64,000 nt of DNA from Achromobacter deleyi (GTDB lineage: Bacteria > Pseudomonadota > Gammaproteobacteria > Burkholderiales > Burkholderiaceae_B). The stretch lies in NCBI RefSeq assembly GCF_016127315.1, contig NZ_CP065997.1, positions 1,302,001 through 1,366,000 of the forward strand, given 5' to 3'. The position numbers were made by a program, and so were the translations under genes. Numbering within the stretch: position 1 is the first letter of the stretch; each line of letters begins with the position of its first letter. Shown here piece by piece: positions 19,610 through 34,604 of the stretch. Below the pieces are notes generated by a model. It made no database searches. It saw only the letters and a list, made by a program, of their open reading frames with translations, and was not told where the DNA came from.

Positions 19610-20632
19610 TCAGCCCAGCCCCGCGCGGCGGGCCAGCGCCACGAACAGCGGTCCGCCCAGCAATGCCGCCATGATGCCGGCGCTGATCTCGTCCGGCCTC
19701 GCGACCAGGCGGCCCAGGGTATCGGCGGCCAGCAGCAGACAGGCCCCGACCAGCGCGGCGCACGGCACCACCCGTCGATGCGCGGGGCCGCAGGCATGGC
19801 GCGCCACATGGGGCGCCGCCAGTCCGATGAAGGCCAGCGGACCAGCCGCGGCGGTCGCCGCGCCAGCCAACAGCACGATGGCCATGGCGGTGCCGATCCA
19901 GACCAGGCGCGGCCGCGCCCCCAGGGCCTGGCCAAGGTCCTGTCCCAGCGCAAGCGCGTCCAGCGCTCGCGCCAACGCCACTGCGCCAGCCGCCCCCAGC
20001 GCCATGGCCGGCAGCACGGCGGCCAGCACATGCCCGGAACGGCCTTGCAGTGAACCGACCACCCAGTGGCGGAATTGATCGAAGACGCGGTCTTCGCTGT
20101 TGATCGTGATGATCTGCGTGACGGCCAGCAGGATCGCCGACAGCGCCGCGCCCGCCAGCACCAGCCGCAGCGGATCATGCCCACGATGCAATCCGCCGAC
20201 CGCATAGACCAGGGCGCCGGCAGCCGCGGCGCCGCAGAAGCCCGCCATCAACTGCCCGGCCGGTCCCGGGGCGAGTCCGAACGCCATCGCCGCGGCGATG
20301 GCCGCCGCCGCCCCTGCGTTGACTCCCAGCAGGCCGGGATCGGCCAACGGATTGCGCGTCAGGGTCTGCATGAGCGCTCCCGCGATGCCGAGCGCCCCGC
20401 CCGCCGCCAGCGCCAGCAACGTACGCGGCAGTCGCAGGTGGCGCAACAGCAGATGCTCGTTGTCCAGCGGGTCGAAGGCGGTCAGCGCCTGCCCCACCGT
20501 GGCCAGCGACAGCGGCCGCGCCCCGGCCATCAGGCTCGCCACCGCCAGCAGCGCAAGCGCGATGGCGCAGGTCAGCAACAGGCCTGCCGCGAAACGGCCG
20601 CGCATGCGCGACGGACACAAGGCGCGCGTCAT
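19610..20632 (-). CDS. Iron-siderophore ABC permease (FecC/FepD type)
   Basis: A 340-residue FecCD-family permease with RLPRTLLALAAGGALGIAGA, TRNPLADPGLLGVNAGAA and GPLAFIGLAAPHVARHACG. The ATG at 20632 overlaps the stop of the binding-protein gene (ATGA), a sign of translational coupling. NPLADPGLLGVNAGA is the form usually seen in FepD/FecC-type proteins, while the partner has NPLGSPDLIGFTTGA as in FepG/FecD, which supports the heterodimer assignment. Confidence 0.92.
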   Translation of the reverse strand: MTRALCPSRMRGRFAAGLLLTCAIALALLAVASLMAGARPLSLATVGQALTAFDPLDNEHLLLRHLRLPRTLLALAAGGALGIAGALMQTLTRNPLADPGLLGVNAGAAAAIAAAMAFGLAPGPAGQLMAGFCGAAAAGALVYAVGGLHRGHDPLRLVLAGAALSAILLAVTQIITINSEDRVFDQFRHWVVGSLQGRSGHVLAAVLPAMALGAAGAVALARALDALALGQDLGQALGARPRLVWIGTAMAIVLLAGAATAAAGPLAFIGLAAPHVARHACGPAHRRVVPCAALVGACLLLAADTLGRLVARPDEISAGIMAALLGGPLFVALARRAGLG

Positions 20633-21570
20633 GTCCCGAAGCGTTCGAGCAAGATGTCGATGATCTGGCCGGCGCTGAACGCATCGATGCGGAAGGCGTC
20701 CCGGCCCAGGGCGTAGACCTGGCCCGCCCGCACCGACGGCAGATTGGCCAGCACGGGATCGCGCAGCAACGCGTTGGCGCCGGACGCGTCGGCGCGCAGC
20801 ACGAACGTGGTGCGCGCGGTCAGGCGCGTCAGCGCCTCATAGGGCGCCCAGACGAAATCCCCGGGCGCGCCCAGCGCCACATGCCAGGCGGGATCGGGCG
20901 CCTCGATCCGGAAGCCCAACGATGCCAGCAACCGGGCCTGCGGGCTCGCGGGCGTGGCGATGGGGTTGTTGGTCCCCGGACCGTTGTAGCTGACGATGTT
21001 CACCATGCCCTCCGGCACCCGCAACCGGGCCCGGGCTGCCGCGACCCGCGCGTCGAAGCGGGCGATGGCCGACGCCGCGGCGGTTTCAATGCCGAGCGCC
21101 CGGCCCAGCTGCATGGCGAGCTCCTGCCAGGTCTGGTGGCTGTAGTCCACCACGATGACCGGCGCGATGGTGCGCAGGGCATCGAGCTGCTCGCGCGCCG
21201 AATCCGCGCCGGTCGCCGACACGATGATCAGATCGGGCCGCGCCGCATAGGCAGCTTCCAGGTCGACCTGCCCGGCCGGCCAGAGCGGCTTGAGGCCATG
21301 TTCGCGCGCCACGCCGGCCCATTGCTCGAAAAAGCGGCCATTGGCGCCGCCGGCACTGGCGATGACCGGCGCATCGATGGCCAGCAGGGTGCCCGTCACG
21401 GTCACCGACGTGGACAGCACGCGCCGCGCGGCGCCCGCCAACGTGGTCCGCGTGCCGTCGGCGTTGTCGAAGCGGCGCGGCCAGTCCGGCGACGTCTGCG
21501 CTTGCGCCGACGCGCTCGCGCCCAGCGCGAACGCCATCAACAGCGCGGCCACCCAGCGCCCGACATTCAC
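20629..21570 (-). CDS. FepB-like siderophore-binding protein
   Basis: A 313-residue periplasmic binding protein with a signal peptide ending near SASAQA. The mature start resembles enterobactin-binding FepB: STSVTVTGTLLAIDAPVIAS is close to the FepB sequence as I recall it, as are ISATGADSA-like, QLDALRTIAPVIVVDY and VYALGRDAFRIDAFSA segments. No in-frame ATG lies before the signal peptide; the GTG at 21570 overlaps the receptor stop as GTGA and is the likely start. It should deliver a catecholate-type Fe(III)-siderophore to the FecCD permeases (inference from likeness). Confidence 0.85.
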   Translation of the reverse strand: MNVGRWVAALLMAFALGASASAQAQTSPDWPRRFDNADGTRTTLAGAARRVLSTSVTVTGTLLAIDAPVIASAGGANGRFFEQWAGVAREHGLKPLWPAGQVDLEAAYAARPDLIIVSATGADSAREQLDALRTIAPVIVVDYSHQTWQELAMQLGRALGIETAAASAIARFDARVAAARARLRVPEGMVNIVSYNGPGTNNPIATPASPQARLLASLGFRIEAPDPAWHVALGAPGDFVWAPYEALTRLTARTTFVLRADASGANALLRDPVLANLPSVRAGQVYALGRDAFRIDAFSAGQIIDILLERFGT

Positions 21571-23786
21571 CACGACAGTCTCGCGGTCGCCATGACCGTG
21601 CGTCCCGTGCCGTAGTAGCACGAGGTGGCGGCTGAGCACGTCGCCACGTAGCGCTTGTCCGCCAGGTTGCTGCCATTGAGCGCCAGTTGCAGGTTCATGC
21701 CGCCGATCTTGCCCACGTCGTAACGCAGGGCGGCGTCGAACAGGGTGTACGCGGGGATCCGCAGGTAGTTGGCCAGGTCGCCATACGTCGCGCCGACGTA
21801 GCGCACGCCCGCCCCCATGCCCAGGCCGGCCAACGGGCCGCCGTGGAAGGTGTAGTCCACCCACATCGAGCCCATCCAGTCGGGTACCCGGATCATGCGG
21901 TTGCCGGTGTGGCCATCGTTGCTGCGCACCACCTTCGAATCCATGCGCGTCACGGCGCCGATGACACTCAGCCCACGCAGCGGCGTGATGCGGCCCTCCA
22001 GTTCGATGCCGCGCACGCGCACCTTGCCGGTCTGCACCTGATAGGCCTCGTCGGCCTCATTGAGGGGATCGGCCGTCAGCACGTTCTGCTGCGACAGCTC
22101 GTAGGCCGACAACGTGATCATGCCGTCGATGGTGCGCGGCTCGTACTTCAGGCCCGCCTCCCACTGCGTGCCGGTGGTCGGCTTGAACGCGTTGCCCGCG
22201 CGCGTCGTGCCGCCGGTGGGCTGGAACGACTCCGAATAGCTGAAATAGGGCGCCAGGCCATTGTCGAACAGGTAGGTGACGCCGGCGCGGCCGGTGAAGG
22301 CCTCGTCCCGCGTCACCTGGCGCACCCCGGTCAGGCGGTTGAGGGAATCCATCCGTGTCCAATCCTGCCGCCCGCCGAGCGTGAAGCGCCAGCGGTCCAG
22401 CGCGATCTGGTCCTGCAGATACACGCCATACTGCGAGTCGGTCTCGCGCGTGGACATCTGCCTGGCCAGCGTCGGCTCGAAATCGTAGTGGGTGTAGACC
22501 GGGTCGTACACGTTGATCGCGATGGCCGCGGGCGAGACCGTCGCGGCCTGGCGCAGGAAGGTCCATTGCGTCTTCTGCCAATCGAAGCCGGCGATCATGG
22601 TGTGGGTCAGTGGCCCGGTGCCGAACTTGCCCTCGATGCGCGTGTCGACGGTCTGCGCATCCGAATCGCCTTCGCCCTGCACCGCGCGGCGGTTGAGGAT
22701 GCGGCCGCCGATGAGCGTGTTCAGGTTGGTGAGCGCCGCGCCGCGCACGCCGTTGCCCACGGTGGCGCGGTAAAGCGAATCCACATGCGTGTAGCGCGCG
22801 TTCTGGCTGACTTTCCAGGCGTCGTTGAACTGGTGCTCCAGTTGCCAGCCGGCGGTCCAGATATCGCGGTCATAGGTGTTCCAGTCGGGCTCGCCCAGGA
22901 ACGTGGTGTTCTTGATATAGCCCTCGGCGGCCGGCACCACCGTGCCCTGGTAGGGCAGGAACTGGAACGTGCTGCCCCCGCGGTCCTTCTGGTACAGGCC
23001 ATGCAGCGTCAGCCGCGTGGCATGGTCGTTGAAATACATCGTGGCGCTGGGCGCGATGAACCACTGCTCGTGGTCGGTGTGCTTGATCTGGGTCGCGCCG
23101 TCGCCATACAGCCCCACCAGCCGCCACAGCACGTTTTCGTCGGAATTGGCGCCGCCCAGGTCGAAGGCGGTCTGCCTGCGCCCGTGGCCATCGACCTGCA
23201 ACTGCACCACCTGCTCCTGCTCCAGCGTCGGCAGCTTGCTGACCTGGTTCACCATGCCGCCTGGCGCCAGTTGGCCATAGAGCACGCTGGAAGGCCCTTT
23301 CAGCACCTCGATGCGCTCCAGGTTCCAGGTATTGAAGGACGTCCGATTCCAGCTCAGGCTGCTGTCCGAGGGCGCGCGCAAGCCATCCAGCATCACGTTC
23401 GCGCCGAAGCTGCCGGCATCGAAGCCGCGGATGTAAAGATCATCCACCCGATTGTCGATGCCCTGACTCTCGGGCAGGACCCCCGCCGTGTAGCGCGTGG
23501 CTTCATTGAGGTTGCGCACGCCGCGCAGTTCCATCTCGCGCCGCTCGATCACCGACACCGATTGCGGCACCTCGCGCAACGGCGTGTCGGTCTTGGTCGA
23601 ACCGCCGATCGTGTCCGCGGGCCGGTAGGCGTTGACCGTCACCGCTTCGAGGTTGACCGGTTCGTCGGCGGCCAGAACGACACCGGACTGCGCGAGCAGG
23701 GCAAACAATAGCGAATGCGCCGCGCGGCGGCCGGCCGGACGAGCGGCGCGACGGGATGGAGGGCGCTTTGGTGCGTAGGCTGCCAC
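21567..23786 (-). CDS. TonB-dependent siderophore receptor (FhuA/FcuA type)
   Basis: A 739-residue outer-membrane receptor. It has a long twin-Arg-rich signal region (residues 1-39), a TonB box region (EAVTVNA), a plug domain with ETRYTAG-like, LYIRGFDA and LERIEVLKGPSSVLYG segments, and a 22-strand barrel ending in aromatic ...ATARLSW. The start is a GTG at 23786 with AGGAGAAG before it. It leads a six-gene operon in which each following transport gene overlaps or nearly touches the previous one. The plug (GQLAPGGMVNQVSKLP) is of the ferrichrome/hydroxamate receptor type, while the binding protein is enterobactin-like, so the ligand class is uncertain. Confidence 0.93.
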   Translation of the reverse strand: MAAYAPKRPPSRRAARPAGRRAAHSLLFALLAQSGVVLAADEPVNLEAVTVNAYRPADTIGGSTKTDTPLREVPQSVSVIERREMELRGVRNLNEATRYTAGVLPESQGIDNRVDDLYIRGFDAGSFGANVMLDGLRAPSDSSLSWNRTSFNTWNLERIEVLKGPSSVLYGQLAPGGMVNQVSKLPTLEQEQVVQLQVDGHGRRQTAFDLGGANSDENVLWRLVGLYGDGATQIKHTDHEQWFIAPSATMYFNDHATRLTLHGLYQKDRGGSTFQFLPYQGTVVPAAEGYIKNTTFLGEPDWNTYDRDIWTAGWQLEHQFNDAWKVSQNARYTHVDSLYRATVGNGVRGAALTNLNTLIGGRILNRRAVQGEGDSDAQTVDTRIEGKFGTGPLTHTMIAGFDWQKTQWTFLRQAATVSPAAIAINVYDPVYTHYDFEPTLARQMSTRETDSQYGVYLQDQIALDRWRFTLGGRQDWTRMDSLNRLTGVRQVTRDEAFTGRAGVTYLFDNGLAPYFSYSESFQPTGGTTRAGNAFKPTTGTQWEAGLKYEPRTIDGMITLSAYELSQQNVLTADPLNEADEAYQVQTGKVRVRGIELEGRITPLRGLSVIGAVTRMDSKVVRSNDGHTGNRMIRVPDWMGSMWVDYTFHGGPLAGLGMGAGVRYVGATYGDLANYLRIPAYTLFDAALRYDVGKIGGMNLQLALNGSNLADKRYVATCSAATSCYYGTGRTVMATARLSW

Positions 23787-23913
23787 GGGACTTCTCCTGC
23801 GAGTAAATAAGATTTGTTCTCACTGGAGTAGACCATGGGGGCTGGCGCGCGTCGTTCGTGAAAGCGGCGGAATCGTTCGCGCAAACGGCGATCTGCGGCC
23901 GCCGCCGGCGCGG

Positions 23914-24795
23914 CTACAGACGGGCCTGCACCTGGCGCGGCGTCAGGCCGAAATGGCGGCGGAAAGCCGTGGAGAAACTGCCTGGGTTGGCATATCCGGC
24001 CAGCGCGGCCGCCTGTGTCACGCTCACCCCCTCCGATTCGAGCGCCTGGCGCGCCAGGCGCAGGCGCTCCTGCTGCAGGAAATCGAACACCGTGATGCCC
24101 AGCGCCTGACGGAAATGGCGCTGCAACGTGGTCGGCGTGGTGTTCATGTGGCGCGCGATCTGCTCGATGCTCAAGGGCTCCGCCGCATGGCGCCGCAGCC
24201 AGTGCGTCAGGTCGACCATGCGCCGGCGCAGCACGGCCGGCGCCGGCTCGGCCACCTGGCCGGCCTGCGCGCCCTCGTGCGACAACGCCTCGATGACCAG
24301 TTCGATGGCGCGGCTTTCGAGATAAAGGCCGGCCACGTGCCCGGGCAGCGGCGGCGGGCTCAGCAGTTGCTCGGCCAACAGGCGGGCGCGCGTCGACGCG
24401 CGCCAGCTGCGCGTGGCCAGATGCGGGGCGAACGTCCGGGTCTCGCCCAACGATTCAGCCAACCACTGCCGGTTCACCCCAATACTGACACGGCGCGACG
24501 ATTCACCGCCGGCCACCACCCGCCGGCATTCCTCGGGTTCGCACAACGTCACCACGCCCGCGTCCGCGCCCTGCCCACGCGCCAGCCGCAGGGCGCTGCG
24601 CCCGTAGCTGACGTCGATGCGGCCATCAAGCACCAGCACGATCCGTAAATGGTCATCGACCATCGCCAGGCCGGTCGAGGCCTCGCTATCGGTTTCGCAG
24701 GCGAGCTGCAGGCTGAGGCCGGGCCGCAAGTGGTGGATCTTGCGCAAAGGCGCCGCGCCGGTGGCATCGGGCGCGCGGGACAGGACGCTTGCCAT
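23914..24795 (-). CDS. AraC-family regulator (PchR-like)
   Basis: A 293-residue regulator whose C-terminal 100 residues hold two HTH motifs (SIEQIARHMNTTPTTLQRHF and the downstream SVTQAAALAGYANPGSFSTAF). The N-terminal sensor part resembles PchR/AlcR-type proteins that bind iron-siderophores. It lies just upstream of the receptor gene (127-bp gap) in the same direction, so it most likely activates the uptake operon when the siderophore is present. A Fur-like box lies in its own promoter region at 24842-24860, fitting repression by iron. Confidence 0.88.
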   Translation of the reverse strand: MASVLSRAPDATGAAPLRKIHHLRPGLSLQLACETDSEASTGLAMVDDHLRIVLVLDGRIDVSYGRSALRLARGQGADAGVVTLCEPEECRRVVAGGESSRRVSIGVNRQWLAESLGETRTFAPHLATRSWRASTRARLLAEQLLSPPPLPGHVAGLYLESRAIELVIEALSHEGAQAGQVAEPAPAVLRRRMVDLTHWLRRHAAEPLSIEQIARHMNTTPTTLQRHFRQALGITVFDFLQQERLRLARQALESEGVSVTQAAALAGYANPGSFSTAFRRHFGLTPRQVQARL

Positions 24796-24841
24796 GGGAA
24801 AAGGGCGGCCCTCGAAGCGTCTGCGGCCGCATCACGTTGAT

Positions 24842-24860
24842 AAAAACGATTCTCATTATA
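24842..24860. promoter_or_regulatory. Candidate Fur box upstream of AraC regulator
   Basis: The 19-mer at 24842-24860 (plus strand AAAAACGATTCTCATTATA) matches 13 of 19 positions of the classical Fur consensus, with the right half CATTAT fully conserved. It lies 47 bp before the ATG of the AraC gene, inside a short AT-rich patch that is the only plausible promoter in the gap 24796-24994. Confidence 0.5.
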
Positions 24861-24994
24861 TTTTTCGCAATCCTTCCTGGCAAGATGGCCGGGATGATCG
24901 GAAAAACCGCTGGCGGAAGCGGAACTGGCTGACGGGCCGCAGGCACCGGCGGAAATGCCGCCCGGCTGCCCGGGCGTGCGGGAGCCTGACGGCA

Positions 24995-26476
24995 TCAACC
25001 AGACTTTGGCAATGATTGGCAATCATTGCCCGGCGTCGGATCCTCCGGCTTGAACCATGCGGGCCACGAGCTGCGATGCCTGTCGCCCACTTCGATACCG
25101 GGAATCAACGTCTGCGCCAGCGCAGGCAACTGATCCGCGGACTTGGCGATCCGATATTTGACGCTGTGCACGCATTCCCGGTCGCCGAATTCGCAACGAT
25201 TGAGCCGGGTGCCGCCACAGGGCCCGTTCGCCAGGCCCTTGGGACAGGTCTCGGGGCAGACGTAGAGCGTGTCCTGCAAGCGGCAGGTCCCGCAGGTGTC
25301 ACAGCCGACCAGCGGCCGCTTGAGCGTCCGTTCGACCGCGTGCAGCGCCTGCGCCGCCACGCCGGTTTTCCAGAACGGCCGCGTCACACTCCAGCCAAAG
25401 GCGCTGCCGAGCCATCCCGTGCGATTGAAGAGCTGTTCATGCACCGTGGAAAGCAGCGCATAGCGCAGGCGCTCCCCAGGCGTGGCGGCGACATCGGATT
25501 GCCCCAGCGCCCACGTGTCGGTATCAGGGGCGAAGCACACCTCGGGCATCCCGGGCATCCGCCAACTCGCCTGCCATCGCTCGACCCAATCGGACAGCGA
25601 GGTCACCGCGTCCCGCTGCCGGGTGATCGCCTGCTCCAGCGACAGCAGTTCGTCCAGCGTATGCACCCCGGACAGATGCACCCCGGCATACCCCATCCAT
25701 TGCAGGCCCACGATCTGCAGCGCCAGCCGCTCGAGGCTGCAGGCGCTGGCATGGGCGGGAGATAGCTGTTGCTCCCTGCGCAGCAATTCGCGCATGGCGT
25801 CGGTGATGACGATGCCGGGCACGTCCCGCAATACGGCCGCGCGCCTTGCGGTCAGCTGCATCACACAGGCCAGCATGGGCTTGCCGCGGCCCTGCGCGCG
25901 CATCCAGGCCTGGGCCTCGAGATGCTTGGCGGCGTCGAAGCCCAGTTGCAGGGTCAGGAAATCCGCGCCGGCCAGCAGTTTCTTCTGCGCCTTCAGGTAC
26001 TGCGCGGCGCCTTCTTCCTCGCGGTATTTGAACGGGTTCAGCGCCGCGCCCAGCAGCCAGTCCGGGCCGTGCTCGCGGGCAATCTGCAGCGCAGGCACCG
26101 ACTCCAGATAGCGCACGGGCGCCTGGCCCGGCTGGTGGCCCGGCAGGCGATCGCCACTGAGCATCAACAGTTGCTTCAGCCCGCGCGCCTGCATCGCCGC
26201 CATCTGGCGCAGCAAGTCCGCGCGCTCGCGGTCCTTGCCTGAAAAATGCAGCAGGGAGGCCGAGGGATCGTCCAACGCTGCCGCGCCCTCCAGGGGGCTC
26301 AAGTCCGAATGCAGGCCGACGCGATCGGCGAAGGCCGGCAGCAACGGCCAGCCGGCCAGGTGCCCGCGCTGCACGATCGGCTCGAGCGCGGCAAGGCGCA
26401 CAGGGGACTGTTGAGGAATGACCTCCAGCACGCAGGCGAAGCGTCTTTCGTCCAGCGCCTGTTTCAATAAACTCAA
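24995..26476 (-). CDS. Methylenetetrahydrofolate reductase-like protein with C-terminal Cys-rich (MetV-like) domain
   Basis: A 493-residue cytoplasmic protein. The first 310 residues look like a MetF-type TIM barrel (LMLSGDRLPGHQP, AALNPFKYREEE, FLTLQLGFDA). The C-terminal 100 residues resemble the MTHFR-C domain (MetV in acetogens), with Cys at 392, 395, 398, 407, 411, 420, 428 and 435 in CDTCGTC, CPETC, GPCGG and CEF/CVH contexts, likely binding metal or Fe-S. The start is unclear: the frame opens with TTG at 26476, no ATG is suitable, and a TTG three codons later is possible. It ends the mesX-mesD-flavin reductase run, separated from the reductase by 79 bp. It may supply or handle one-carbon units for methionine synthesis. 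Confidence 0.75.
   Translation of the reverse strand: MSLLKQALDERRFACVLEVIPQQSPVRLAALEPIVQRGHLAGWPLLPAFADRVGLHSDLSPLEGAAALDDPSASLLHFSGKDRERADLLRQMAAMQARGLKQLLMLSGDRLPGHQPGQAPVRYLESVPALQIAREHGPDWLLGAALNPFKYREEEGAAQYLKAQKKLLAGADFLTLQLGFDAAKHLEAQAWMRAQGRGKPMLACVMQLTARRAAVLRDVPGIVITDAMRELLRREQQLSPAHASACSLERLALQIVGLQWMGYAGVHLSGVHTLDELLSLEQAITRQRDAVTSLSDWVERWQASWRMPGMPEVCFAPDTDTWALGQSDVAATPGERLRYALLSTVHEQLFNRTGWLGSAFGWSVTRPFWKTGVAAQALHAVERTLKRPLVGCDTCGTCRLQDTLYVCPETCPKGLANGPCGGTRLNRCEFGDRECVHSVKYRIAKSADQLPALAQTLIPGIEVGDRHRSSWPAWFKPEDPTPGNDCQSLPKSG
25008..25030. repeat. 23-bp perfect palindrome
   Basis: GGCAATGATT at 25008-25017 pairs with AATCATTGCC at 25021-25030 around the trinucleotide GGC. It lies inside the last codons of the MetF-like gene and about 215 bp upstream of the AraC gene start. 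The AATGATT half-sites look like an operator for a dimeric repressor. It may also act as a hairpin near the end of the MetF-like transcript. Confidence 0.8.
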
Positions 26477-26555
26477 GACAGCTCGATACCGTGGGAAGCA
26501 GGGGAAAGCCGCGGCGCCTCAAGCCGATGCGGATGACGCCAAGCGCGGCAAACGC

Positions 26556-27065
26556 TCAAGCCGCGTCATGCGCGGCCATGTTGCGATACTGTCCTTTGAA
26601 ATACAGCAAAGGCTGCGTGGCGCCGGCTTGCTGCAGATCCAACGCCTTCACTTCGCCAATCACGATCACGTGATCACCCGCGGCGTATTCCGCATGGATC
26701 TCGCAATCGATCCAGTGCAGGCTGCCGGCAATGAGCGGATTGCCCAGCGGCGATTCCTGCCAGTCGATGCCGAGCCACTTGTCCGTGCCGCGCCGGGCGA
26801 ACTGGTTGGACACCTCGACCTGCCCATCCGACAGGATGTTCACGGCGAACCGGCCCGCCTGGCGAATCTTCGGATAGCTGGCCGAATTGGACATCACGCT
26901 GAACGACACCAGCGGCGGACTCATCGACACGCTGTGGAACGACTGGCAGGTAAAGCCGATCGGCTCGCCATCGATGTGGGTGGTGACCACCGTGATACCG
27001 GACGCGTAGTGCCCGAGCGCTTCACGAAAGCGCAACGGCTCGATGGCAGGACTGGGGAGTGACAT
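26556..27065 (-). CDS. Flavin reductase (FMN reductase, RutF/HpaC type)
   Basis: A 169-residue member of the flavin-reductase-like domain family: ALGHYASGITVVTTHIDGEP, GFTCQSFHSVSMSPPLVSFS (FMN site), FAVNILSDGQ and GDHVIVIGEVKAL. Such proteins reduce free FMN or FAD with NAD(P)H and pass it to a partner monooxygenase. The ATG at 27065 is used; a TTG five codons upstream is also in frame. It lies 108 bp after mesD with a hairpin between. It could serve the oxygen-dependent MesD/MesX reaction or the LLM monooxygenase encoded 9 kb away (inference). Confidence 0.85.
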   Translation of the reverse strand: MSLPSPAIEPLRFREALGHYASGITVVTTHIDGEPIGFTCQSFHSVSMSPPLVSFSVMSNSASYPKIRQAGRFAVNILSDGQVEVSNQFARRGTDKWLGIDWQESPLGNPLIAGSLHWIDCEIHAEYAAGDHVIVIGEVKALDLQQAGATQPLLYFKGQYRNMAAHDAA

Positions 27066-27130
27066 GGTAGGTACAGCCAAATGCTGGCGACTGGGTGCAG
27101 CGCGAATGCGACGTAGGGACTTGCGAATCT

Positions 27131-27157
27131 GGCCGTCGCAAGCAGCTTGCGACGGCC
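27131..27157. terminator. Perfect 12-bp hairpin after mesD
   Basis: GGCCGTCGCAAG at 27131-27142 pairs perfectly with 27146-27157 around a CAG loop. It lies 17 bp after the mesD stop (minus strand). No T-run follows on the minus strand; on the plus strand only ATTTTCC follows. It may be a weak terminator, or an intercistronic stabiliser that gives mesXD more mRNA than the genes after it. Confidence 0.5.
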
Positions 27158-27173
27158 ATTTTCCGTCTCGAAA

Positions 27174-28202
27174 TCAGTTCGAGAGTTCGTTGCGGACGAT
27201 TTCCGCGCCGGCGCTCAACGAGCTCAGCTTGGCGCGTGCGATGGCGCGGGACAGCGGCGCCATGCCGCAGTTGGTGCACGGATAGAGCTTGTCGGCGTCC
27301 ACGAACTGCAGCGCCTTGCGCAGCGTGTTGGCCACTTCCTCGGGGGTTTCAATGGTGTTGGACGCCACGTCGATGGCGCCCACCATCACCTTCTTGCCGC
27401 GGATCAGTTCGATCAGCTCCATCGGCACGTGGGAGTTGTGGCATTCCAGCGAGACGATGTCGATATTGGACTTCTGCAGCTTGGGGAAGGCTTCTTCGTA
27501 TTGCCGCCATTCCGAGCCCAGCGTCTTCTTCCAATCCGTGTTGGCCTTGATGCCGTAGCCATAGCAGATGTGGACGGCGGTTTCGCACTTCAGCCCTTCG
27601 ATGGCGCGTTCCAGCGTGGCGACGCCCCAGTCGTTGACCTCGTCAAAGAAGACGTTGAACGCGGGTTCGTCGAACTGGATGATGTCGACGCCGGCCGCCT
27701 CGAGTTCCCTGGCTTCCTGGTTCAGGATCTTGGCGAATTCCCAGGCCAGCTTTTCGCGGCTCTTGTAGTGATCGTCGTACAGCGTGTCGATCATCGTCAT
27801 GGGACCCGGCAGGGCCCACTTGATCGGCTGCTTGGTCTGCTGGCGCAGGAACTGGGCGTCCTCGACGAACACCGGCTTCTTGCGGGCAACCGCGCCCATC
27901 ACCGTCGGCACGCTCGCGTCATAGCGATCACGGATGCGGACGGTCTTGCGGTTCTCGAAATCGACGCCGTCCAGGTGCTCGATGAACGTCGTCACGAAAT
28001 GCTGGCGGGTCTGCTCGCCATCGCTGACGATGTCGATGCCCGCGTGTTGCTGTTCCTGCAGCGACAGGCGCAGGGCATCCTGTTTACCCTCGAGCAGTCC
28101 GCCATCCTGCAATTTCCAGGGCGACCACAGGGTCTCGGGCTCAGCCAGCCAGGAGGGTTTGGGCAGGCTGCCGGCGGTGGAGGTGGGAAGCAGTTTTTTC
28201 AC
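27174..28202 (-). CDS. mesD: Core-MetE methionine synthase, MesD type
   Basis: A 342-residue protein equal to only the C-terminal catalytic barrel of MetE; full MetE is about 750 residues. The zinc ligands are present: H211 and C213 (VHICYG), E253 (SLECH) and a Cys in PCTNCG (309/312). The start is a GTG at 28202 with AGGT upstream. Its neighbour is a DUF1852 protein (MesX), the pairing known for MesD, a folate- and cobalamin-independent methionine synthase of aerobic bacteria that needs oxygen and MesX. The natural methyl donor was unknown as far as I recall. The product should be methionine made from homocysteine. Confidence 0.88.
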   Translation of the reverse strand: MKKLLPTSTAGSLPKPSWLAEPETLWSPWKLQDGGLLEGKQDALRLSLQEQQHAGIDIVSDGEQTRQHFVTTFIEHLDGVDFENRKTVRIRDRYDASVPTVMGAVARKKPVFVEDAQFLRQQTKQPIKWALPGPMTMIDTLYDDHYKSREKLAWEFAKILNQEARELEAAGVDIIQFDEPAFNVFFDEVNDWGVATLERAIEGLKCETAVHICYGYGIKANTDWKKTLGSEWRQYEEAFPKLQKSNIDIVSLECHNSHVPMELIELIRGKKVMVGAIDVASNTIETPEEVANTLRKALQFVDADKLYPCTNCGMAPLSRAIARAKLSSLSAGAEIVRNELSN

Positions 28203-28227
28203 AATGATGACCTGATGCGCTGATTAA

Positions 28228-29211
28228 TCAAAGAGGAGTGGCCGCGGACCACTGTTCAAGAATCGTCTGGTAGGGCTTGATGAATTGCTCTTCCACAAAC
28301 CTGCCCTGCTCGACAGCCAGCCGACCACGTTCCTCTCGATCGTAGACAATCCGGGTCAACGAATAATCCTGGTGCTTCAGACTGGGTTGGTAGGATTTCC
28401 CCGCGCCCGAATTCGCGTTGTAGATCTCGGGGCGGTAAATCTTCTGGAAGGTATCCATCGTGCTGATGGTGCTGATCAGCTCGAGATTGGTGTAATCACC
28501 CAGCAGATCGCCCGTGAAATAGAACGCCAGCGGCGCGGCGCTGTTCGGCGGCATGAAGTAGCGAACCTTCATCCCCATTTTCTTGAAGTACTCGTCGGTC
28601 AGGGAATACTCATCCTGCTGGTACTCGACACCCAGCACCGGATGCTGGTTTTCCGTCCGCTGGTAGACCTTGCTGCTCGAGACGCTCAGGCAGATGACGG
28701 GCGGCTTGTTGAAGTTTTCCTTGTAGGTGCTGGAGTTCACGAAACTCTTGAACAGCTTGCCATGCAGATCGCCGAAGCCTTCCGGGGCGCTGAACTGGGG
28801 CTGGTCCTTGTTGTGCTCCAGCAGCACCACGCTGAAGTCGTAATCCCGCACGTACGAGGAGAAATTGTTCCCCACGATGCCCTGGATGCGCTCGTTGGTC
28901 TTGCGATCGACGATGTTCGTCTTCAGGATCTCGATCAGGGGCAGCGCATTGCCGCTGCTTTCGCCGTCGATACTCAATTCGACCGAAATGATTTCAAGTT
29001 CGACGCCGTAACGGTCGCCCTTGGGGTTGTCCCAATGCGCCAGCGCATTGAAACGGTTGTCGATCATCCTGAGCGTGTTGCGCAGATTTTCCTGGCGGCT
29101 TTCGCCTCGCGCCAGATTGGCGAAGTTGGTCGTGATTCGCGTATTGTCGGCGGGACGATAATCTTCGTCGAAACAAATACTCTTGATGGAAAATGCGAAC
29201 TCTTTACTCAT
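28228..29211 (-). CDS. mesX: DUF1852 protein, MesX
   Basis: A 327-residue soluble protein of the DUF1852 family, required by MesD for activity. N-terminal landmark: FSIKSICFDEDYRP followed by RITTNFANLARGE. The ATG at 29211 begins the conserved region; an ATG 35 codons upstream would add an AT-rich, unconserved extension. Base composition is visibly lower in GC than neighbouring genes, and Asn/Lys/Phe are more frequent, so it may have been acquired or evolves under other pressure. It leads the cluster, 25 bp before mesD. Its reaction is unknown; the oxygen dependence of the system suggests an oxidative step. Confidence 0.87.
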   Translation of the reverse strand: MSKEFAFSIKSICFDEDYRPADNTRITTNFANLARGESRQENLRNTLRMIDNRFNALAHWDNPKGDRYGVELEIISVELSIDGESSGNALPLIEILKTNIVDRKTNERIQGIVGNNFSSYVRDYDFSVVLLEHNKDQPQFSAPEGFGDLHGKLFKSFVNSSTYKENFNKPPVICLSVSSSKVYQRTENQHPVLGVEYQQDEYSLTDEYFKKMGMKVRYFMPPNSAAPLAFYFTGDLLGDYTNLELISTISTMDTFQKIYRPEIYNANSGAGKSYQPSLKHQDYSLTRIVYDREERGRLAVEQGRFVEEQFIKPYQTILEQWSAATPL

Positions 29212-29538
29212 TTTGATCCAGCGCCCAAATTTCTCAGATAAAACCCGCGTTATTTCCTGCTTTTCATTATTTCCAATATTTTTTGGATTTTTTTGATTAA
29301 GCAGTATTGACAGCATCTATATTCGGGTCGTATTTTATGCCGGGCCTTGTATGAATAATAATGATTTAATTTCCATGAAATCATTAGTTTCGCTCATGAT
29401 GATGTGCCCGGCCTGAACCGGGCTCGCGGCCAGGCCTCGGCCTCCCGTACGCCGCGGCCATCCCTCCTCCCACACGTTCGTCATTGGCATGCCGCGCCCC
29501 CGCCTGGGCAGACGCGACGGCTCCACGCACTCGACATG

Positions 29539-29564
29539 AAAAAAGGGCCGCGAATGCGGCCCTT
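29539..29564 (-). terminator. Rho-independent terminator of glmS
   Basis: On the minus strand, a 9-bp stem (AAGGGCCGC with GCGGCCCTT) and a 4-nt loop is followed by six T. It lies 52 bp after the glmS stop. Confidence 0.88.
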
Positions 29565-29579
29565 CGGGATCCCGGTCCA

Positions 29580-29606
29580 CACGCATCGTCCCGGGAACGA
29601 TGCGTG
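29580..29606. repeat. Hairpin in the glmS 3' untranslated region
   Basis: CACGCATCGT at 29580-29589 pairs perfectly with 29597-29606 around a 7-nt loop (CCCGGGA). It sits 10 bp after the glmS stop and 16 bp before the terminator hairpin. It may stabilise the mRNA 3' end or bind a protein or RNA partner. Confidence 0.75.
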
Positions 29607-29615
29607 GCCAGCGGT

Positions 29616-31448
<1,833 letters not shown>

Positions 31449-31599
31449 AGGAGAGACTCCGGAAAGTTCGAGTACGGAACGCATTGTGCGCGCAGCGCCA
31501 AGAAATTTGATTTCTTTATCTGCTCAGATTTGACAGTTTATTCACTTACATATTTGTGATTAAATAATATTTCATGAATAACGGATTGGTGAATTAATC
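31449..31599. promoter_or_regulatory. Divergent promoter region of glmS and the AsnC-type gene
   Basis: A 151-bp gap, AT-rich from 31500 on. A perfect 15-bp palindrome AGAAAT-TTG-ATTTCT lies at 31501-31515. A -35-like TTGACA at 31530-31535 faces the AsnC-type gene with TATTTG at 31551-31556 (15-bp spacer, short). A wide inverted repeat, TGATTAA at 31557-31563 and TTAATCA at 31594-31600, reaches the start codon and could be an autoregulatory Lrp-type site. Confidence 0.45.
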
Positions 31600-32091
31600 A
31601 TGCAAAATCCGCCGCTTTCCCACCCCGAACTGGATGATCTGGACCTGCGCATCCTGGAACAGCTGCAGGACGACAATTCGCTGACCAACCAGGAACTCGC
31701 CTCGCGCGTGCATGCCTCGCCGCCGACCTGCCTGCGGCGGGTGCGGCGCCTGGTGGAAGAAGGGGTGATTGCGCGCCAGGTGGCCATCCTGGCGGCCGAG
31801 AAGCTGGGCAGCACGCTGACCGCCATCGTCGAGATCACGCTGGACGTGCAGGCGGCCGAAAGCCTGGACGCCTTCGAACAGATCATGCTGGCCGAACCGG
31901 CGGTGCTGCAGTGCTACCGCGTGTCGCCGGGGCCGGATTTCGTGGTGATCGCGCAGGTCCGGGACATGCCGGCCTATCACGCGCTGGCGCACCGCGCCTT
32001 CACCGCGCACGCCAACGTGCGCAACGTGCGCACGTTCTTCTCGGTGCATCGCGCCAAGTTCGAGACCCGCATCGACCTGCGGGCGCCATAG
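31600..32091 (+). CDS. Lrp/AsnC-family transcriptional regulator
   Basis: A 163-residue regulator with an N-terminal HTH (LDLRILEQLQDDNSLTNQELA, then HASPPTCLRRVRRLVEEGVI) and a C-terminal RAM/AsnC ligand-binding domain (LQCYRVSPGPDFVVIAQV). Such proteins form octamers and sense amino acids. It is divergent from glmS; whether it controls glmS is not known. The AT-rich upstream region with inverted repeats suggests autoregulation. Confidence 0.9.
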   Translation: MQNPPLSHPELDDLDLRILEQLQDDNSLTNQELASRVHASPPTCLRRVRRLVEEGVIARQVAILAAEKLGSTLTAIVEITLDVQAAESLDAFEQIMLAEPAVLQCYRVSPGPDFVVIAQVRDMPAYHALAHRAFTAHANVRNVRTFFSVHRAKFETRIDLRAP

Positions 32092-32100
32092 CGACGCGCC

Positions 32101-33162
32101 TCAGCGGGCCGCCAGCAACCGCTCGAACTGCGCCAGGTAACGGTTGCCCATCTTCTGCACGTCGTGCTCGTCGCGCACGTAGTCATAGGCACGGTCGGTG
32201 ATCTCCTGGCGGAACGCGGCATCGTCCAGGCAACGCGCCATGCCCTGCGCCATGGCATGGAAATCGGCCACCGCGCACAGCACGCCGCGGCCATCGGCCA
32301 GGCTTTCCTTCAAGCCGCCGGCGTCGGTGGACACCACCGGCACGCGCTGCAGGAAGGCGTCCAGCACGCTGCTGCCCAGCGCCTCTTCCTCGGAGCTCAT
32401 GACGAAGACGTCGAGGATGCTGTAGAAATCCTCGACGCCCTTGCGAAAGCCCGCGAAGCGGTAGACGTCCTCGACGCCCAGCGCGCGCGCCTCGTCGCGC
32501 GCCTGCTGTTCGCGGTCGCCGCCGGCGCCGAAATGCAGGAAGACGAAGTCGCGCCGCGTCCTGGCCAGTTCGGCCACCGCGCGCACCAGCGTCACCGGAT
32601 CCTTGTCGCGGATCAGCGCGGCCGACGTGGCCATGACCTTCTTGCCTTCCAGGCCGAACTCGCGCACCAGCGCGGCGACGTTCGCCTGGTTGATCTGGTG
32701 CGGCTCGACCGCGCTGCGGATGATGACCGGGTCCAGCCCCAGGCGCCGCGGCTCGCTGGCCGCCATGTCGCTGATCGCCACGAACAGGTCGGTATGGCGC
32801 CACTTGTAGCCGGTCTTCCATTCCTCGTTCGGCTTGACCACGAACGAGGTGCGGCGCGAGAACGCCACCGGGCGCCGGTGCAGCCACTTGGTCAGCACCG
32901 CCCAGGTGATGGTGTTGGCGGTCTGGGCATGGATGATGTCATAGCCGCTGCCCGCGCGCGCCAGGAACGCCAGCTGCGCCGGCACATTGCGGACGGTGTG
33001 CGCCACGAAGCCCTCCTGGCGCACGCGTTCGGCCAGCGGGCCGCCTTCGCGGCACAGCACTTCGACCTGGTGGCCGGCATTGCGGAAGGCGCGCATGCAA
33101 TACAGCGTCTGCCGCTCGCCGCCGCGCCAGCCCTTCTCGAAGTTGAGCTGCAGGATCTTCAT
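32101..33162 (-). CDS. Glycosyltransferase family 4
   Basis: A 353-residue GT-B-fold glycosyltransferase. The N-terminal [12 protein letters not shown] segment binds the acceptor side, and the C-terminal nucleotide-sugar site shows [16 protein letters not shown] (the E-x7-E motif region of GT4). It starts with an ATG at 33162 that overlaps the ugd stop (ATGA), so it is translationally coupled to ugd and may use UDP-glucuronate or a derived sugar. It probably acts in LPS core or exopolysaccharide synthesis at the cytoplasmic face (inference). Confidence 0.88.
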
Positions 33163-34481
33163 GCGCGGCCGATGCCCGAGTACTCGAAGCCCTGGGCGCG
33201 CACGTCGGCCGGCGTGTAGAGGTTGCGGCCGTCGATGATGAGCGGGGTCTTGAGCAGGGCCTTGACGCGGTCGAAGTCGGGCGCGCGGAAGACCTTCCAT
33301 TCCGTGGCGATCAACAGCGCGTCGGCGCCGTCGAGCGCGTCGTACATGTCGGTGGCGAAGCTCACGCCGGCCTGGCCGGCCAGCACGCGGCCGGCCTCGT
33401 GCATGGCCACCGGATCGTAGGCGCGCACACTGGCGCCGCGCCGCGTCAGCTCGGCGATCACGGTCAGGCTGGGCGCCTCGCGCATGTCATCGGTATTGGG
33501 CTTGAACGACAGGCCCCACAGCGCGAACTTGCGGCCGCTCAGGTCCTCGCCGTAGCGCGCCACCAGCTTTTCCGACAGGCGGAACTTCTGCGCGTGGTTG
33601 GCGGCCTCGGCCGCCTCGATGACGCGCATCGGCAGCGCATTCTCGGCGGCGGTGTTGACCAGCGCCTGCACGTCCTTGGGGAAGCACGAACCGCCGTAGC
33701 CGGCGCCCGGATACAGGAAGTGGTAGCCGATGCGCGGATCGGCGCCGATGCCCCGGCGCACCTGCTCGATGTCGGCGCCCAGCGCCTCGGCCAGGTTGGC
33801 CATCTCGTTCATGAACGAGATGCGGGTGGCCAGCATGGCGTTGGCGGCGTACTTGGTCAGCTCGGCCGAGCGCACGTCCATCACCATCAGGCGGTCGTGG
33901 GTGCGCTGGAACGGCTCGTAGATGCGGCGCATGACGCCGATGGTGTAGTCGTCGTCGGCGCCGACGATGACGCGGTCCGGGCTCATGAAGTCGTTGATCG
34001 CCGCGCCTTCCTTCAGGAATTCGGGATTGGACGCGACGCTGAACGGCACCTCGACGCCGCGCGCGGCCAGCTCCTGCTCGACCGCGGCGCGCACCTTGTC
34101 GGCGGTGCCGACCGGCACGGTGGACTTGTCCACGATCAGCTTGCGGGTGGTCATGTGGCGGGCGATGTTGCGGGCCGCGGCCAGCACGTACTTCAGGTCG
34201 GCCGAGCCGTCCTCGCCCGGCGGCGTGCCGACGGCGATGAACTGCACGTCGCCGAACGCCACGCTCTGCGCCACGTCATCGGTGAAATGCAGCCGGCCTG
34301 CCTGCACGTTGCGCCGCACCAGGTCTTCCAGGCCCGGCTCGTAGATCGGAATGCCGCCCTGGCGCAGCAGGGCGATCTTGGCCGCGTCCACGTCCAGGCA
34401 CATGACGTCGTTGCCCATGTCGGCCAGGCACGCCCCCGACACCAACCCTACGTAACCGGTACCCACGACCGTGATCTTCAT
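33159..34481 (-). CDS. ugd: UDP-glucose 6-dehydrogenase
   Basis: Ugd (EC 1.1.1.22) oxidises UDP-glucose twice with NAD+ to UDP-glucuronate. The 440-residue protein has the N-terminal NAD motif [14 protein letters not shown], the catalytic-cysteine motif GGSCFPKD, and the C-terminal UDP-binding domain ([16 protein letters not shown]). The MKITVVG start at 34481 was chosen over an in-frame ATG 14 codons upstream. Together with the overlapping glycosyltransferase gene it forms a two-gene surface-polysaccharide operon. Confidence 0.95.
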
Positions 34482-34604
34482 GCCTGAACGCCTTAAAAAT
34501 AGGTAATCATCGCGCCGGGGCATCCCACCCCAGCGCCGGTCGCCATTATAGAAGCGGGCCGGCCGGCGGGTCTGGCGCCGCCCGGCCCGGGAGCGGAGGG
34601 CGCG

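Follow-up and report, generated by a model that had tools for sequence, protein, structure and literature searches.

We analysed a 64,000-nt stretch of the Achromobacter deleyi genome (contig NZ_CP065997.1, positions 1,302,001 to 1,366,000; hereafter the window), which carries the methionine synthase gene pair mesX-mesD (mesXD) together with two further genes. All four genes are intact and lie on the minus strand in the order mesX (28228..29211, a putative oxygenase with DUF1852, 327 aa), mesD (27174..28202, a core methionine synthase, 342 aa), a flavin reductase gene (FR; 26556..27080, 174 aa, with a TTG start at 27080 and an ATG at 27065) and a gene with a TTG start for a 493-aa fusion protein (24995..26476). 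The latter joins a methylenetetrahydrofolate reductase (MTHFR) barrel to a Cys-rich DUF5981 domain, and we refer to it as MTHFRC. The intergenic gaps are 25 nt (mesX/mesD), 93 nt (mesD/FR) and 79 nt (FR/MTHFRC). This arrangement had been proposed in the original prediction and was borne out by both coordinates and profile matches, with E-values of 2.5e-190 for MesX (PF08908), 1.7e-45 for FR (PF01613) and 2.5e-19 for the DUF5981 domain of MTHFRC (PF12225), and 1.2e-203 for MesD against PDB 3rpd, its nearest solved structure. Given these E-values, chance matches are of no concern for the four predicted genes. The window genome, a single contig of 7.0 Mb, encodes one MesX. Since MetE (791-aa frame), a homocysteine methyltransferase domain of the MetH type and a separate, ordinary MetF are encoded as well, the mesXD locus is not the sole methionine route of this genome.

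For comparison we used the best 80 of 416 named loci found, which are the closest relatives of the window locus and are mutually non-independent, and a phylum sample of 398 genomes, in which MesX occurs in 44 (the window genome counted) and the 43 other loci were analysed. The nearest named MesX loci belong to Achromobacter. The predicted pairing of MesX with MesD held in 80/80 named loci and in 43/43 loci of the phylum sample.

MesD scored 709.4 bits against NF006589 ("methionine synthase", cut-off 392). PF01717 spans residues 5-330, and Meth_synt_1 scored 18.1 bits, below its cut-off of 27; with a mesX neighbour and without the N-terminal folate domain of MetE, the protein is a core synthase. 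The zinc ligands named in the original prediction, H211, C213, E253 and a late Cys, are all present. We assign the late Cys to C312, because C312 is kept in all 131 rows of our alignment, as are the other three ligands, and C309 is replaced by Ser in 27 of these rows. The homocysteine-binding residues S12 and E63 are likewise found in 131/131 rows, and D178 in 130/131 with one gap. A diverged Burkholderiales group (loci L136-L138) has MesD proteins 55-58% identical to that of the window, with all zinc and substrate residues retained.

MesX scored 631.8 bits against PF08908 (cut-off 25), covering positions 1-323 of 323, and its AlphaFold2 model reached a pLDDT of 91.3 and a pTM of 0.91. No Pfam family besides PF08908 matched, a PDB sequence search found no relative, and fold searches gave no lead on a flavin-monooxygenase fold. 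All of 348 sequences (the best 120 matches per list plus the locus copies) have C174 and H190, 347 have H150, and several acids are invariant too. Conservation thus suggests C174 as a candidate methyl carrier and H150/H190 as candidate metal ligands, as alternatives to each other. Two pieces of a second, broken MesX occur in addition to an intact copy in one genome (G082:C1:2175963-2176446). Further, mesX-like sequence was found on 209 of 72,556 plasmid records (e.g., L201-L207), most commonly in Pantoea (71), Acinetobacter (28) and Agrobacterium (21).

MesD was reported to require MesX and O2, and not MetF, 5-methyltetrahydrofolate (5-methyl-THF) or cobalamin, and mesXD alone rescues Escherichia coli metE and metF mutants (Price, Deutschbauer and Arkin, 2021; PMC7857596). 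The same paper predicts MesX to be the methyl supplier and to use a flavin, and states that a putative flavin reductase is frequently near mesXD. The ACIAD3523/3524 MesD/MesX system described there resembles the window locus in its order of mesX then mesD, its zinc and homocysteine residues, a nearby flavin reductase and the coexistence of MetE and MetH. The need for MesX and O2 was published, and the methyl supply predicted, for other species; we therefore apply both here by homology. MesD would move a methyl group onto zinc-bound homocysteine, and MesX would provide that methyl by an O2-dependent route that uses neither 5-methyl-THF nor cobalamin. Where MesX takes its methyl group from is a question of interest for amino-acid metabolism.

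FR scored 155.3 bits against PF01613 (cut-off 27). Eight NCBIfam profiles matched, all below their cut-offs, with HsaB best (184.6 of 230 bits) and HpaC_Thermus at 122.1 of 200. In its PF01613 membership and its HsaB/HpaC-like best matches, FR resembles the NAD(P)H:flavin mononucleotide (FMN) reductases of two-component monooxygenases (HpaC/HsaB, PF01613; MsuE, PF03358). It differs from them in scoring under the equivalog cut-offs, and MesX is only a putative flavin monooxygenase. A PF01613 reductase adjoins mesXD in 74/80 named loci, of which 57 carry the window type and 17, mainly in Acinetobacter, a second type at 26-28% identity to it. An MsuE-type FMN reductase takes the place of FR near mesXD in 5/130 loci; its gene lies between mesX and mesD in G082 and immediately 5' of mesX on an Acidovorax plasmid (L207). 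PF01613 and PF03358 are unrelated in Pfam, as checked with three examples of each, and the two reductase types had no match in common in the search of the loci.

The conservation of FR next to mesXD, which the original prediction had set as a test in related genomes, thus holds among close relatives but not generally. A reductase was near mesXD in only 6/43 phylum-sample loci (PF01613-type in two, MsuE-type in four), which weighs against our overall reading of the locus. Around those loci of the phylum sample and the plasmids that have neither FR nor MsuE, no flavin reductase was found among the 20 of 37 same-strand neighbor open reading frames (ORFs) that were scanned, opposite-strand and shorter ORFs being outside the scan. 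FR adjacency is lineage-bound, and we rejected FR as a universal mesXD partner. A chemistry driven by reduced flavin plus O2 is not a new proposal, as it was already put forward by Price et al. (PMC7857596), and to call FR the missing electron source was too strong, given that mesXD alone rescues the E. coli mutants (PMC7857596).

That reductases from two families occur near the same pair of genes argues that MesX uses free reduced flavin, whereas the 37 phylum-sample loci without a detected reductase argue that a dedicated one is dispensable. We conclude that FR probably feeds free reduced FMN (FMNH2) to MesX, dispensably, with other cellular reductases able to substitute. We also considered MesX as a non-haem iron oxygenase, in which H150, H190 and an acid would bind the metal, FR would reduce the iron or a partner, and FMNH2 would not be a co-substrate. 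The two near-invariant His and several invariant acids across the 348 sequences are consistent with such a site, as is the published O2 requirement (PMC7857596). MesX has neither another Pfam family nor a PDB sequence relative to link it to such enzymes, and FMN reductases of two unrelated families fit free FMNH2 better; we regard an iron oxygenase as quite unlikely.

The fourth gene had been predicted to encode a MetF-like fusion. MTHFRC is indeed an MTHFR-DUF5981 fusion, yet a diverged one and not a plain MetF. It matched PF02219 weakly (35 bits, cut-off 24) and PF12225 with 69.2 bits (cut-off 23). With PF02219 above its gathering score and an MTHFR-like TIM barrel (about residues 1-288; 25613..26476, minus strand), it falls within the MTHFR/MetF proteins, but with 27.7 of 293.7 bits it fails the MetF equivalog TIGR00676. 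The DUF5981 domain (MTHFR C-terminal, Cys-rich; residues 377-455; 25112..25348, minus strand) is the low-confidence portion of the structure model. In an alignment of the locus set that included the MetF of the window genome, E18, H77, D109, K166 and Q177 of MTHFRC stand at the positions of the catalytic MetF residues; these five and eight Cys were conserved in 41/41 rows. MTHFRC differs from MetF (PF02219) in its weak similarity, an NPF replacing the AAYPE stretch of MetF, an extra middle region and a Cys-rich C terminus with the eight conserved Cys. It shares PF12225 and the conserved Cys pattern with the MetV-like DUF5981 domains of anaerobic methylene-THF reductases; unlike these, its copy is fused to an MTHFR barrel and lies beside B12-independent methionine synthases. 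Judged by its conserved residues, MTHFRC would most likely act on 5-methyl-THF through the MTHFR site, and its Cys-rich domain would hold a metal or serve in redox chemistry.

A full-length MTHFRC is present in 31/80 named mesXD genomes, and the gene adjoins mes in 14/80 named loci, downstream on the same strand in ten and on the opposite strand in four. The window order of FR then MTHFRC occurs in 10/80. Elsewhere MTHFRC is upstream and divergent of mes (G046 and G354, one genus) or about 2-4 kb upstream of mes on five Acinetobacter plasmid records, with queH in between in four. In the phylum sample, where up to 12 first-look candidates per genome were scored for DUF5981, MesX and DUF5981 occurred together in two genomes besides that of the window and were adjacent in 2/2. 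A tree of 41 MTHFRC rows (duplicate cuts of one gene dropped; L142 excluded, its frame being split) requires at least three changes, gains or losses, of the adjacency label, with L213 scored as non-adjacent despite a mes-type FR beside it.

Such proximity could mean that MTHFRC or FR has a direct part in making the methyl donor. In this scheme 5,10-methylene-THF and FMNH2 would react so that either the flavin is alkylated or a residue of MesX, e.g., C174, is methylated, and oxidation by O2 would make the methyl group transferable to MesD. ThyX and TrmFO transfer methyl groups from methylene-THF via reduced flavin, flavin reductases occur near mesX, C174 is invariant, and the FR-MTHFRC order of the window recurs in the ten loci mentioned. 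Nevertheless, mesXD alone suffices in E. coli, even without metF (PMC7857596), and E. coli was not among the control genomes that matched DUF5981. We therefore consider a direct role in making the methyl donor very improbable.

MTHFRC is linked to metE as well. In 4/7 Pseudomonas-type loci a full-length metE is divergent to MTHFRC at a distance of 217-373 nt; in the others, the neighbors were a thiolase and a CobW-type GTPase gene in two and neither in one. By PF08267, examined in 50 of the 80 named genomes, MetE was present in 10/14 genomes with adjacent MTHFRC and in 21/36 others, and the absence of MetE as a cause of MTHFRC is unsupported. Because MTHFRC is linked to metE as well as to mesXD, it appears to be an accessory to methionine synthesis without B12 and not a part of the MesX reaction. 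As an obligate MesXD component it was rejected, since 49/80 mesXD genomes have no full-length copy. Its recurrence beside mesXD in several arrangements and beside metE is new here; we found no mes-linked MTHFR-DUF5981 gene named by Price et al., whose main text contains neither QueH nor queuosine, and they list the MTHFRC relative ACIAD1783 as probably having another function (PMC7857596).

MTHFRC might instead be a forward methylene-THF reductase isoenzyme, giving 5-methyl-THF for B12-independent synthesis (chiefly by MetE) with non-NADH electrons entering via the Cys-rich domain. This would agree with the conserved MTHFR catalytic residues and fold, the divergent pairing with metE and the ten MetE-containing genomes. 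It sits poorly with the independence of MesD from MetF and 5-methyl-THF (PMC7857596) and with the ordinary MetF already present in the window genome. Moreover, PF08267 was not found in 4/14 genomes with adjacent MTHFRC, and therefore a forward MTHFR there would be without a B12-free consumer. We hold this alternative to be unlikely.

A further gene, queH, recurs at these loci. QueG is B12-dependent, and QueH is its B12-independent counterpart as epoxyqueuosine reductase (PMC10378866, PMC6461909). QueH was found in 17 of the 80 named loci, where 83-310 nt separate it from the closest gene of the mes cluster, whereas the controls MetF, MetH, CobW, CstA, FabV and Thiolase were found in 0/80 each and MetE in 2/80. 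PF02677 confirmed ten QueH matches, of which three are short. The position of QueH varies: it may precede mesX or follow FR, MTHFRC or mesD. In L047, L056 and L072, a QueH piece of 77-83 aa lies beside mesX, perhaps as a decayed copy. Among the matches listed from the open PubMed Central literature, most subscription papers and all preprints being outside it, no link of QueH or DUF5981 to mesXD was found.

Since mesXD or metE, queH and MTHFRC share neighborhoods in several beta- and gammaproteobacterial lineages, cobalamin-free life appears to be their common factor. It is fairly likely that MTHFRC belongs to a cobalamin-independence cluster together with mesXD or metE (replacing MetH) and queH (replacing QueG; outside the window). 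For the locus overall we somewhat favor, on balance, a mesXD locus with an FMNH2-feeding FR and an MTHFRC from this wider cluster.

A number of findings weigh against this reading. QueH is absent from the 64 kb of the window, and in the phylum sample it occurs in 1/43 loci, equal to the controls MetF (1/43) and CobW (1/43). MesX (44 genomes) and DUF5981 (19 genomes) coincide in 3/398 genomes, that of the window included, which is the chance level; across the sample of 398 genomes and 43 loci, no excess of QueH or DUF5981 with MesX was seen. The evidence for the cluster is adjacency in particular lineages, not phylum-wide co-occurrence. Full-length MTHFRC is missing from the 49 genomes noted above, and it was not seen adjacent to mes in 17 of the 31 genomes that have it; among those 17, MTHFRC in L078's genome adjoins a mes-type FR where the contig ends, and L059's contigs are too short to tell. 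MetE, which drains 5-methyl-THF, is present in the window genome and in 10/14 genomes with adjacent MTHFRC, and for the MTHFRC relative PP_4638, none of 101 fitness experiments revealed a phenotype (PMC7857596).

In another explanation, the cluster consists of habitat-useful genes that were co-transferred and MTHFRC and FR are biochemically unlinked to MesX-MesD. Presence is sporadic, with MTHFRC (E of 1e-20 or better) in 2/399 and MesX in 12/399 Burkholderiales genomes; mesX is carried on the 209 plasmid records, the Acinetobacter plasmid clusters have an integrase gene nearby, and the phylum sample is without excess co-occurrence. On the other side, the same small gene set recurs across beta- and gammaproteobacteria with several gene orders and strand arrangements. 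Further, B12 represses mesX together with a flavin reductase: in Acinetobacter baumannii AB5075 given B12, mesX (ABUW_3198) was reported to decrease about 300-fold (log2 -8.33) and the flavin reductase ABUW_3196, two tags from mesX, about 6-fold (log2 -2.52) (PMC12892962). We find co-transfer without a biochemical link fairly doubtful, and return to the cobalamin-independence reading.

Within that reading, the role that we tentatively prefer for MTHFRC is that it might convert 5-methyl-THF back to 5,10-methylene-THF and so release the methyl-folate trap. 5-methyl-THF would be left without a consumer whenever MetH is short of B12 and MesD is in use. Such a role would explain an accessory and sporadic gene, its linkage to B12-free synthases and the silence of PP_4638 in MetH-using cells. 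The full proposal of a portable cobalamin-independence kit is more doubtful as a whole. Such a kit would combine mesXD or metE and a dedicated FMN reductase with queH and with a 5-methyl-THF-oxidising MTHFRC that frees folate when want of B12 leaves MetH idle. If true, a bacterial enzyme dedicated to the methyl-folate trap would apparently be new. The linkage makes both this role, through ACIAD1783 and its relatives, and the methyl source of MesX testable, neighborhoods of queH, metE and mesXD offer a route to further B12-replacement genes, and the cluster is relevant to predicting which bacteria are able to live without B12. At the Acidovorax plasmid locus L207, genes of the 2-methylcitrate pathway (B12-free propionate use; acnD, prpF and prpB-like) were also near mesXD; across the mes loci, strong matches to them were otherwise found only in L138.

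Regarding regulation, an exact MetR-like box (TGAA-N5-TTCA) was found in 46 of 124 regions upstream of mesX, against a mean of 0.72 and a maximum of 3 in single-base shuffles, and one cluster of LysR-type regulators lies near mes in 44/130 loci in either orientation (e.g., L007:6633-7562; one representative checked with Pfam). Together they point to methionine-linked control. Upstream of the window mesX there was no exact copy of the box, the best having two mismatches, and no LysR-type regulator was found beside this mesX; positions 20000-34500 gave no Rfam riboswitch match reaching the gathering score. An inverted repeat, AATGATTT-N10-AAATCATT (29360..29385, minus strand), lies 5' of mesX as a candidate operator, read from the sequence, and is similar in L003-L005.

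A TauE/SafE-type permease is encoded near mesXD in 12/130 loci (L144, L205 and ten others) in varying orientation, with two representatives checked with Pfam; it is possible that it transports the substrate or product of MesX. In the window, genes for an AraC-type regulator and an FhuA-like TonB siderophore receptor (21567-24795, minus strand) lie 3' of MTHFRC and are also present in L003 and L005; they form an iron-uptake set that is probably unrelated to mes. On the other side of the locus, a GC-rich hairpin with a T run (29539-29562, minus strand) directly follows glmS (29616-31484) as a terminator-like end dividing glmS from mesX.

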